64,000 nucleotides of DNA from Acidithiobacillus sp. (GTDB lineage: Bacteria; Pseudomonadota; Gammaproteobacteria; Acidithiobacillales; Acidithiobacillaceae), in contig JAQVDS010000008.1 of the NCBI GenBank assembly GCA_028697715.1, positions 1 through 64,000 on the forward strand. The letters run 5' to 3'. Position numbers and translations under genes: made by a program. The stretch's first letter is position 1; every line of letters starts with the position of its first letter. Under the pieces are notes generated by a model. The model was not told the origin of the DNA and ran no database searches. It saw nothing but the letters and a program-made list of their open reading frames with translations. Positions 1-13,047 of this stretch are shown here, one piece after another.

Positions 1-122
1 CGTGGGCACTGATTCTGAAAAACCCGCAAAAGTGCCCACGATCACACCAGAATCAGTGCCCACGATCGATCAGAATGACCGCCCACGATGCATCAGAATC
101 GGTGCCCACGATGGTCCAGAAT
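1..122. repeat. 23-24 bp direct-repeat array, IS21-like terminus candidate
   Basis: On the minus strand the core ATCGTGGGCAC recurs with its first base at 112, 89, 66 and 42, a 23-24 bp period. Three copies are followed by a variant of CGATTCTG. Bases 1-17 (CGTGGGCACTGATTCTG) are a perfect 17-bp inverted copy of 48-64. Multiple short repeats of this kind are typical of IS21-family ends, and the reading frame at 122-303 stops resembling protein exactly where the array starts. No istA or istB transposase is in view because the window ends here. A plasmid-type iteron cluster is the alternative. Confidence 0.5.
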
Positions 123-303
123 ATGCAACCCATCGCTTATCGGTTGCGGCTTCGCTGTAAATGTTCCTGTACAGGCGGTCACGCTCGGCTCGCATCTGTT
201 TGGCCCGCGCTTCGTGCTCTGGCGCGATCAAGAGAGAAATCCAGCCTTGCGGGTGGATTTGACTGTTCGTCAACGCTTCAACCCTCGGTAGGATACCGCC
301 CAT
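122..303 (-). pseudogene. 5' fragment of an unknown gene cut by the repeat array
   Basis: The frame starts at ATG 303 and runs about 60 residues (EALTNSQIHPQGWI, then a charged helix around EHEARAKQMRAERDRLYRNI, then EAATDKRWV) before it enters the repeat array near 122 and loses protein character. The composition looks like real coding sequence. The stop of the preceding fragment lies in the same frame 19 bases upstream. Its place directly downstream of a DNA methyltransferase suggests, by position only, the N-terminus of a restriction enzyme or accessory protein. I do not recognise the family. Confidence 0.4.
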
Positions 304-321
304 GGAGAATGATAGCCCGGA

Positions 322-512
322 TCAACTCGCTATGCTCGCCGTAATCTCGACAGGGATACGGTTCTGCTCTCGTTCCTTGGCGTAGTGGGCAACCAGCGTT
401 TCCCGGTCTGCCCGATAGGCCGGCCGGGCTGGTCCGGATGGTAAAGGGCAATGCCGACATCGCAGACGATGATCTGGTGCACAGCCTCGATGTAATCGTT
501 CTTGTCGTTCAT
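322..512 (-). pseudogene. Frameshifted small gene coupled to the methyltransferase
   Basis: The ATG at 512 overlaps the methyltransferase stop as ATGA, a normal sign of translational coupling. The first ~30 residues (MNDKNDYIEAVHQIIVCDVG and on to HPDQPGR) look natural. In the same frame the rest does not, and it ends at 330. A different frame picks up natural-looking sequence (AYRADRETLVAHYAKERE, then IPVEITASIAS) and stops at 322. The switch falls in a GC-rich run near 420-437, so I read this as one gene with a single-event frameshift or an assembly error. The function is unknown; by position it could be a restriction-modification partner. Confidence 0.4.
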
Positions 513-1978
513 TCGGCCAGGGTTCCTAGCTTGGCGTCGATCTGGTCTTGCGTGAGTGTTCCTTGCTTCATGGCCCACTCGCCGAGCTGGATCAGGGTGT
601 CACGGCTCGGATACTTCATCAGCTTGAGGTCGGTTGCATTGACCTGTGTATGGCCGTTGAAGCGCCGGAAATGCTCATCTACTGCGGTCGTGTTGAGGAA
701 CACGGCCAACCCACGGGCCAGCGCCTCGGGCAAGCCGTGTTTGTCCTCGTGAAAGAGGTTCATGTGATTCTCGAAGCCCAGCACGGAATAATCGCCAAAG
801 GCGGCAGGATCAACCACGCCTGCCACCACGCGGCGCTTTTCCTCCTTCGACGAGAAGCGGCGCACCACACAATAAAACCCGTTCGGGTAAAGCCACTTTT
901 CCGTCTCGTCGTTGCACATGATCGCGTTGGGCTTCTTCAAGCCCGTCACGGGCCAGACGGTGCCGATCATGCTCAGGTGACTGGGGTAGATCAATGGCAC
1001 GGTGCCCGGCTCTGGCATGTCGCGCAGGTGCTCTTTCAGCCGGAAATCGACTACCGGCCCGGTCGATACCCTCACGCCAATGTCGGCCAGCGAGTAGCGC
1101 ACGGCGGGCGATAGCTCGATGGCGCTTTTCTCGCTCGTGGTCGGCACATGAATGAATCGCTCCGGATCATCCGGGAACACGATCCGGTCGAACTGGTGTT
1201 CGTGGGTGGTCAGGTCGGAAAAGCTGTCATCGGTCGAAGTCGTGACCGTGACCGGCCCCTGCTGGCCGCCACGCTCCAAGCGGATGATGATGTTTTCCTG
1301 CAGCACCTCGTCATCTCTGAAAGCCTTGTTACGCGACGCGAACAGGTGCATGTGGCGGATCGCCGCCCGCTCAAGGATAAAGTCACGGAACGGGCGGTAA
1401 TACGGCCCGTTGCAGAAGCTGCGCGGGATGATGGCCACGATCTGCCCACCCGGTGCAGCCTCGCCTACGGCCAACGCGACAAAGGCGGAATACAGATTCA
1501 CCGTCTCGATGCCGACAGTGCGCAGGGCCAGCCGGTGGTCTGATTGGCTGTTGATCTTCTTGTAAGGCGGATTGAGGATCGCATGGGTATAGCCTCGATC
1601 CTGCAGACCTTCAGCGGTCGCCAGCTCGATGTAATCACCCGCGATGATGCGGGGCGTCACGCGGCTGTATCCGGCCAAGTGCTGTGCAAGGTGGCCGCGC
1701 AGCCTCTCGTCGATCTCGTAGGCCGTCGCCTCGACAGACTCAAAGCCAAAGCCGCCCGTCACCCAGCGGTCGAGAAAGGCGCAGGACAACGCGCCCACGC
1801 CAGCACCTGCGTCCAGTAGACGGCAGGTCTGCAGAGTGCTGGGTGGGAACAGGGTCGCCATGAAGCGGGCCACGCTCGAAGGCGTCATGAACTGGCCGAA
1901 CTCGGCTTTGTGTTTCTGCGCGGTACGAGATGCCACATCGCGGCGCACACTGTCTGCGGTGTTTAGTTGCTGGAGCAT
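509..1978 (-). CDS. Class I adenine-N6 DNA methyltransferase (Eco57I/BsuBI-like)
   Basis: The protein has 489 residues. The N-terminus carries KAEFGQFMTP (about residues 24-33), the usual opening of this group. It is followed by the AdoMet-binding motif LLDAGAGVG (about 54-62), an acidic motif (YEID, 87-90) and the catalytic NPPY (136-139), which marks adenine-N6 methylation of DNA. The C-terminal half should be the target-recognition region. It belongs to an accessory block, and the genes downstream on the same strand are broken, so it is probably an orphan (solitary) methylase left from a restriction-modification system. Its recognition sequence cannot be told from sequence. It begins 9 bases after a small unknown frame. 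Confidence 0.85.
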   Translation of the reverse strand: MLQQLNTADSVRRDVASRTAQKHKAEFGQFMTPSSVARFMATLFPPSTLQTCRLLDAGAGVGALSCAFLDRWVTGGFGFESVEATAYEIDERLRGHLAQHLAGYSRVTPRIIAGDYIELATAEGLQDRGYTHAILNPPYKKINSQSDHRLALRTVGIETVNLYSAFVALAVGEAAPGGQIVAIIPRSFCNGPYYRPFRDFILERAAIRHMHLFASRNKAFRDDEVLQENIIIRLERGGQQGPVTVTTSTDDSFSDLTTHEHQFDRIVFPDDPERFIHVPTTSEKSAIELSPAVRYSLADIGVRVSTGPVVDFRLKEHLRDMPEPGTVPLIYPSHLSMIGTVWPVTGLKKPNAIMCNDETEKWLYPNGFYCVVRRFSSKEEKRRVVAGVVDPAAFGDYSVLGFENHMNLFHEDKHGLPEALARGLAVFLNTTAVDEHFRRFNGHTQVNATDLKLMKYPSRDTLIQLGEWAMKQGTLTQDQIDAKLGTLAE

Positions 1979-1987
1979 TCCATATCC

Positions 1988-2218
1988 TCACTGATGGGGT
2001 ACTTTTAGTTGTCTCTGCTCGGAACATCTCCATGGCCGCTGCCAACGCCGAAGAAATGTCGAACGAAGCCCTTCCCTGGCCATACTCGGCCCCAACGCGT
2101 GCTCCATGTCGCCAGAGTGAGAGACGCGGTTGATGACTGCCCAGACGAAGTTGTCCAGCACACCCTGAAGGTATGCACGATCAACGGTGGGGATATCCAC
2201 CCAAGTTCGTTTCACCAT
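1988..2218 (-). CDS. Small hypothetical protein upstream of the methyltransferase
   Basis: A 76-residue frame starts at ATG 2218 (MVKRTWVDIPTVDRAY) and stops 9 bases before the methyltransferase start. The first ~50 residues look like protein (LQGVLDNFVWAVINRVSH). The tail is arginine- and tryptophan-rich and less convincing, while another frame there reads SSALAAAMEMFRAETT, so a frameshift is possible. Its position would suit a controller or antitoxin-type gene, but no helix-turn-helix is obvious and I do not recognise a family. An inverted repeat lies upstream at 2245-2266 (ACAACCCAT, loop, ATGGGTCGT). Confidence 0.3.
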   Translation of the reverse strand: MVKRTWVDIPTVDRAYLQGVLDNFVWAVINRVSHSGDMEHALGPSMAREGLRSTFLRRWQRPWRCSEQRQLKVPHQ

Positions 2219-2290
2219 CACTCTAAGAACTCTGTAAGAAGACCACAACCCATCTGTATGGGTCGTGTATCCGTCTGAGCATCGCCACCG

Positions 2291-2556
2291 GCACCACATG
2301 CACGCGTCTTCCAGCATAGCAAGGCGCTGCGAGAGTGGGTGAATAAGGCGGCAGTAGAAGCTGGCAAGCGGCCCGGCAGGGTGGCGTCGGAGCGACAACG
2401 AATCCAGGAGTTGGAGCGAGAAGTCAAAGAGCTCCGTCGTGCAAATGAGTTTCTGAAACTAGCCAGCGCGTTTTTTGCCCAGGCGGAGCTCGACCGCCGA
2501 TGTAAACGGTAAGGACTTTCGTAGACCAATATCGGGGAGACTATGGGATCGAGCCC
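2291..2556 (+). mobile_element. IS3-family insertion sequence remnant (orfA end and orfB start)
   Basis: Plus-strand codons from about 2291 to the TAA at 2509-2511 read like the C-terminal half of an IS3-family Orf[21 protein letters not shown], then [18 protein letters not shown] (leucine-zipper part), then [10 protein letters not shown] before the stop. Straight after it another frame reads FVDQYRGDYGIEP, the usual start of OrfB, and similarity stops near 2556. The HTH part of OrfA, the DDE catalytic core and both terminal inverted repeats are missing, so this is a dead fragment. It abuts and truncates the integrase remnant on the other strand. Confidence 0.8.
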
Positions 2557-2559
2557 AAA

Positions 2560-2811
2560 AGAGACGTACCGTGTTGGGCGAACGGGGTTTGGGGGCAGGC
2601 TTGCCCTTAGCATCCCTGCAATCCAGGCCAGCGAGCCGGTCGTCACGGTTCTTGGCCATCAGCTCCGGCGTCAGCGCGGCCAGCGAATACTTGCCCACGT
2701 TCCGCATCAACGGCTTCGCGTGTCTCGCGTCGCTGTCGGCGGGTGCTGGGCGCTCGGTTGGGGAGACTTCGGAAAGATAGTGCCTGAGGGTGTCTTGACG
2801 ATGGTCGCCAT
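2560..2811 (-). pseudogene. Tyrosine-recombinase integrase remnant beside tRNA-Ile
   Basis: The ATG at 2811 opens MATIVKTPSGT, a standard N-terminus of phage/island integrases. The next frame then reads HYLSEVSPTERP, KYSLAALTPELMAK, RDDRLAG and PRSPNTVRL, which is the core-binding (SAM-like) domain. About 50 residues between these two parts are missing and the join is out of frame. Similarity ends near 2560, where IS3 sequence begins, so the catalytic domain (R..H.R..Y) is lost. The start lies 52 bases from the tRNA 3' end in the same orientation, the classic arrangement for a tRNA-integrating island. Confidence 0.8.
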
Positions 2812-2863
2812 TCGGTTGCTCCAGAGCAGGGCTCGTGTACCGCCACGCCAGCGTAAGCAGAGA

Positions 2864-12898: not shown

Positions 12899-12918
12899 GA
12901 TTCCCTCCACCTGGCCAA

Positions 12919-12968
12919 ATACCGAAAGAACCCTTGCATGTTTGGCGCAAGATACCAAAAGAACCTTG
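12919..12968. repeat. Two 17-18 bp direct repeats, 33 bp apart
   Basis: ATACCGAAAGAACCCTTG (12919-12936) recurs as ATACCAAAAGAACCTTG (12952-12968), with one substitution and one deleted base. The start-to-start distance is 33 bases, about three helical turns. They fill the whole gap between tRNA-Glu and the DUF481 gene, so they may be tandem operator sites or a small duplication. Confidence 0.6.
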
Positions 12969-12971
12969 TTT

Positions 12972-13047
12972 TGGCGCTCCCAAGGGGGTTCGAACCCCTG
13001 TTACCGACGTGAGAGGCCGGTGTCCTAGGCCACTAGACGATGGGAGC
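12972..13047 (-). tRNA. tRNA-Glu(CUC)
   Basis: A 76-nt tRNA on the minus strand with CCA encoded. The acceptor arm is GCTCCCA with TGGGAGC, the anticodon loop is CTCTCAC (anticodon CTC), and the T arm is AGGGGTTCGAACCCCC. The sequence closely follows the bacterial tRNA-Glu pattern (CGTCTAG, AGGACACCGGC). Confidence 0.95.

Follow-up and report, generated by a model that had tools for sequence, protein, structure and literature searches.

We estimate at about 85% the probability that the first kilobases of the window, a 64,000-nucleotide stretch of an Acidithiobacillus sp. genome, hold a decayed BsuBI/PstI-type operon, placed in an island beside a tRNA gene, whose methylase would still be acting alone on CTGCAG. 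Judged from its sequence, the surviving enzyme most probably acts by itself as an m6A methylase of CTGCAG, and the island around it is decaying. The endonuclease gene that followed it is destroyed, and the locus is therefore no longer a restriction-modification (R-M) system. The initial annotation had delimited the feature as 122-1978, and that interval fits well; what matters for the locus spans 1-2863 and continues at the start of another contig, C62. The features are collected in Table 1.

Table 1. Features of the methylase locus and of its surroundings, in window positions unless a contig is named.
Feature	Position	Strand	Basis
IS21-family element end, repeated terminal motif ('repeat array')	1-127		matches ends of other genome copies
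Target-site duplication, ATGGGT on minus strand	128-133		same 6 bp after other IS end on C62
Gene B 5' portion of about 48 codons, starting with TTG	128-273	minus	alignment to relatives' intact gene B
BsuBI/PstI-type restriction endonuclease relic	278-512	minus	DNA alignment to intact loci; homologues match PF06616 and PF17728
N6-adenine DNA methyltransferase, intact	509-1978	minus	ORF, Pfam/PADLOC profiles, fold search, conserved columns
Degraded island DNA, methylase to tRNA	1979-2863		no intact gene found
IS3-type orfA piece	2339-2512	plus	profile E 3.3e-4, under curated cut-off
Minus-strand fragment	about 2570-2830	minus	58% over 50 aa to unannotated Proteus stretch; no HMM match
tRNA gene, CAT anticodon	2864-2940	minus	ARAGORN call Met
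Gene B remainder, about 140 codons	contig C62 (L114), about 118-552		alignment to relatives' intact gene B

The methylase is an open reading frame of 489 aa on the minus strand, open throughout, with zero internal stops. It scores 34.4 bits against the Pfam Eco57I family (cut-off 25.3), and its residues 1-487 match the PADLOC type II MTase profile with 781 bits, so that the call of an intact Eco57I-type methyltransferase made at the outset holds. As in members of the BsuBI/PstI type II R-M family, the enzyme is an N6-adenine MTase. A fold search with its AlphaFold model (pLDDT 79.4) places M.BseCI, M.TaqI, and CamA as the top solved structures. The end of the gene overlaps the start codon of the next ORF in an ATGA at 512-509, which bears out the coupling noticed earlier, and seven annotated plasmid loci show a methylase followed by a BsuBI/PstI family endonuclease with the same ATGA overlap. 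The closest plasmid copies of the methylase have 95-96% amino acid identity to it. Upstream of the gene we found no sigma-70-like promoter, and the organism's own promoters may differ.

The specificity is predicted from an enzyme of E. coli RM13514. In that strain, 98.8% of the 2,902 CTGCAG sites are methylated, and the activity is assigned to a BsuBI/PstI methylase in the available text of PMC3893438. Our methylase is identical to the RM13514 enzyme at 411 of 487 residues (84%), and at 204 of 247 residues in the C-terminal half, and because of this identity and of the methylation reported in the accessible part of that source, CTGCAG is its probable recognition sequence. The window's enzyme may thus still methylate the adenine of CTGCAG on the chromosome and on plasmids. 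The likeliest present effect would be that the cell's own DNA is immune to CTGCAG-cutting systems arriving on plasmids and phages, an immunity that would extend to the killing caused by the loss of such CTGCAG systems. The initial annotation had proposed both that such an enzyme may protect the cell and that it may shape the methylome. If true, a specific and cheap prediction follows: CTGCAG is methylated, the DNA is resistant to PstI, and there is no PstI-type cutting. The CTGCAG count in about 121 kb shows neither avoidance nor enrichment (163 observed vs. 169 expected) and is uninformative.

The gene after the methylase had been described as a small frameshifted gene. It is indeed disrupted, but it was never small: it is a full endonuclease gene cut by four deletions, now 235 bp long against about 957 bp when intact. 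The deletions measure about 210, 97, 28, and 387 bp, where the last size is obtained by subtraction from the 957-bp intact gene and the other three from the DNA alignment. The second and third of them (97 and 28 bp) shift the frame. The native start (512) and stop (280-278) are both retained, and between them pieces of the intact protein are found in order: residues 1-15, about 87-101, 134-160, and 170-183, followed by a few residues at the very C-terminus. Three quarters of the length are gone, including nearly the whole catalytic domain. The endonucleases of the three plasmid loci that we scanned all match PF17728 and PF06616; an intact cognate endonuclease with these two domains is missing from our locus.

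The identity of this relic follows from the related loci, because 68 of the 80 that we compared hold an intact endonuclease at that place. These 80 are the best of 269 confirmed loci, picked by similarity; in addition to the 68 intact genes, there are two truncated at the edge of a contig and 10 with damage. In full-length relatives the endonuclease has about 318 aa and the following gene, which we call gene B, has 188 aa. The short genes of the window do not recur as intact genes in relatives, where both are full-length. The gene order of the intact relatives, together with the 68 intact endonucleases, confirms what had been suspected from the first reading, an R-M locus in which the part other than the methylase is dead and the methylase is kept. 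Among the 10 damaged loci, L040, L044, L052, and L080 have a single stop or frameshift in the endonuclease, for which a sequencing error is possible, and L065 has damage in the methylase as well as in the endonuclease. In the other five (L030, L061, L067, L072, and L088), the endonuclease has suffered structural loss beside an open methylase.

Could the lesions be an artifact of assembly or sequencing, with the endonuclease gene really intact? The locus does sit at a contig end, window position 1 being the first base of contig C40, and the break is caused by a repeated insertion sequence (IS). Against this, the deletions range from 28 to about 390 bp, unlike homopolymer slips, the second half of the endonuclease is absent from the whole assembly, and the break in gene B has a proper target-site duplication and both IS ends. 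We regard an artifact as highly improbable.

Nearly as improbable, to our judgment, is that the methylase pairs with an endonuclease from a different place in the genome. Split R-M systems of that kind are known (PMC4176335, section 20, as far as the accessible text goes). The genome, of 2.46 Mb in 71 contigs, is 99.8% complete, and it contains no PF06616 match anywhere at E-values up to 1, nor a second site similar to the intact endonuclease, the relic being the sole match; this search covered the methylase's own BsuBI/PstI family rather than CTGCAG endonucleases of another fold. Within that family, then, the methylase has no cognate endonuclease in the genome and is an orphan.

The decay of the operon extends to gene B, which is split by an IS21-family element, its two parts lying on contigs C40 and C62. 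The initial annotation had this gene cut by a repeat array, and the gene does run into the array, which turns out to be the end of a transposon. It had also counted the gene as a second broken part of the R-M system. Inactivated it is, but as an accessory gene outside the endonuclease family, and by a separate insertion of the IS21-family element. Complete copies of the element, with both istA and istB, are found on contigs C52 and C68. The termini TGC...GCA are shared by C52, C68, and the C40/C62 pair, and each insertion is flanked by its own 6-bp target duplication (ATTGGG in C52, TTCAGC in C68, ATGGGT in the C40/C62 pair). The locus and both full copies thus have the repeated termini and short target duplication of the IS21 family. 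For the copy at gene B both ends are seen and the interior is unassembled, so that istA and istB are read in the C52 and C68 copies. Copies or ends of IS21-family elements occur on C6, C13, C41, C52, C57, and C68 (L104-L109), with identities of 80-100% in the end regions, and several contig breaks coincide with such copies.

The gene B reading frame stayed open while the endonuclease gathered its four deletions. In the sequence of events that we propose, an ancestral operon of methylase, endonuclease, and gene B would have sat in a small island beside the tRNA gene, the endonuclease would have been lost first, with gene B still open, and the IS would have inserted later.

At the boundary of the island, synteny with the sister genomes stops at the 3' end of the tRNA (2864), and core sequence resumes from C62:8344-8361 onward; in the sister genomes the distance between that sequence and the tRNA is 187 bp in G002 and about 1 kb in G007. 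Because the core sequence adjoins the tRNA in those genomes, window positions 1-2863, the IS, and C62 to about 8.35 kb belong to a single island. The tRNA with the CAT anticodon reads like a tRNA-Ile2. Its 3' half differs from that of the sister genomes, even though the adjoining rpoD DNA shares up to 96% identity with theirs. It is as if the 3' half had been replaced by an integrating element; for neither of the tRNA 3' ends did we find another copy (an att repeat), allowing up to 3 mismatches. Between the methylase and the tRNA, the gene on the minus strand at about 1979-2400, upstream of the methylase, looks frameshifted and has no plasmid match, and the minus-strand fragment closest to the tRNA may be integrase-like. 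On the other side, positions 4073-7942 of C62 (L114) carry as island cargo an ECF sigma factor, a DUF2063 protein, an MbnB/TglH/ChrH-type (DUF692) enzyme, and a DoxX protein in a row, an arrangement reminiscent of the copper-binding RiPP 'bufferin' operons. Farther into the window, at 12912-12977, there is a short imperfect tandem repeat of period 33 that reaches into the end of a tRNA-Glu gene at 12972.

An intact methylase beside a dead endonuclease can mean two things, which agree on the anatomy of the decay and differ on present function alone. The methylase may be kept by selection, or the endonuclease may have been lost so recently that the methylase, in a neutral passing stage with no selected role, has had no time to decay. 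With respect to locus L017, the methylase has dS 0.106 and dN 0.019, a ratio of 0.18. Its dN/dS versus close relatives is 0.18-0.20, and among those relatives it is 0.10-0.14; this slight rise, by which constraint may be somewhat relaxed, speaks for the neutral stage. So does the ratio of about 0.14 for the codons of the relic versus L017, a value that would fit a recent loss and a methylase that has simply not decayed yet; these ratios come from 487 methylase codons and 66 relic codons, and they include the time before the loss of the endonuclease. The neutral stage also fits the small number of changes at highly conserved relic columns (only 3 of 16) and the state of the surrounding 2.9 kb, which are rubble.

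On the side of selection, the four deletions per 957 bp of endonuclease stand against none in the methylase. At the deletion rate of the relic the methylase would be expected to have 6.1 indels, and the chance of seeing none is 0.002, a crude estimate that assumes equal rates and independent events. In addition, at the 135 columns that are invariant across 31 other MTases, this methylase is altered at none (0/135) despite about 21 codon changes from L017, with a chance of 0.001; the contrast is overstated, as those changes are split over two lineages and partly predate the loss. The relic itself has changed at 3 of 16 highly conserved columns, at which 62 of the 68 intact endonucleases show no change and 6 show one. 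The lack of any indel and of any change at the invariant residues suggests that the methylase may be kept by selection, and we give the neutral stage somewhat less than even odds.

A stronger form of function, in which the host has recruited the methylase for epigenetic regulation, has general precedent. CamA, one of the structural neighbors in the fold search, is a regulatory orphan MTase of C. difficile. But the seven other genomes of the genus that we examined have no good match to the methylase, which was therefore acquired recently, and a search of 57 genomes returned only its own genome and three weak partial matches. Together with the lack of CTGCAG enrichment, this absence makes a regulatory role improbable.

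The methylase and the endonuclease appear to have different histories, as their divergence from L017 is discordant: they differ from it at 56 of 1461 sites in the methylase and at 33 of 198 sites in the relic (Fisher p 2e-10). The identity of the methylase to L017 is uniform along its length, at 91-100%. The pair L017/L021 has the opposite discordance, with a dS of 0.317 for the methylase and 0.073 for the endonuclease codons. The simplest reading of these alignments would be an exchange between members of the family at the boundary of the methylase and endonuclease genes.

How does this locus compare with systems already described? With the BsuBI/PstI systems that act on CTGCAG (E. coli RM13514/M.EcoGIII and the plasmid copies), it has in common the methylase family, the gene order, the ATGA overlap, and recognizable pieces of the endonuclease; it differs in that the endonuclease is destroyed, and in that gene B is present, and broken. 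The origin of lone methylases is debated. In the portion of Oliveira et al. 2014 (PMC4176335) available, lone methylases are said to arise rarely by the decay of complete systems; the accessible text of PMC6471742 notes degraded endonucleases beside orphan methylases, citing a study of such orphans. The orphans of that study, as excerpted there, likewise have an intact methylase and a dead endonuclease gene, whereas here every base of the lesions, of the additional gene, and of the IS junctions is legible. That the decay of a system can leave an orphan methylase is already known, and this locus is another, very readable case of clear decay. It is also not alone, given that 10 of the 80 best-matching loci have a damaged endonuclease, and that in five of these the damage is structural and the neighboring methylase is open. 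The accessible parts of PMC12375680 and PMC10214660, on defense systems and insertion sequences of acidophiles, have no direct bearing on the locus. Among the openly available papers listed on orphan methylases from R-M decay and on BsuBI/PstI R-M systems of IncP-6 plasmids, none deals with the locus or with gene B.

Gene B is a rare gene tied to BsuBI/PstI R-M loci, the least explained part of the locus, and a possible novelty. It starts here 4 bp past the stop codon of the endonuclease, a spacing that also occurs in L033, L047, and L050. Among the 80 loci compared, it follows the endonuclease directly, at 3-4 bp, in four (those three and L021, where a contig end cuts it), it is convergent to the adjoining endonuclease in two (L058 and L060), and one (L025) has a fragment, for 7/80 in any form. 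Elsewhere it occurs in 1 of 72,556 plasmid records, in none of 50,697 phage records, in no viral contigs, and in 1 of 398 sampled genomes of the phylum, which is the present one. It has no noteworthy match in Pfam, PHROGs, or the PDB sequences; the lone PHROG match, at an E-value of 0.044, we judged to be noise. At the 109 columns invariant in five homologs, our copy has 4 changes, one of them the start codon. Whether gene B is a so far unrecognized third member of some BsuBI/PstI-type systems is doubtful, although we would not call it far-fetched. Its frame having outlasted the endonuclease, it may have acted together with the methylase, or by itself, and not with the endonuclease. The structure model is poor (pLDDT 43.8, from six sequences). 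By eye only, a helix-Glu ... PDF ... VGVKTVKRK pattern may resemble the core of a PD-(D/E)XK nuclease without the usual acid, and gene B could be a nicking nuclease, a modification-dependent nuclease, or a decoy subunit.
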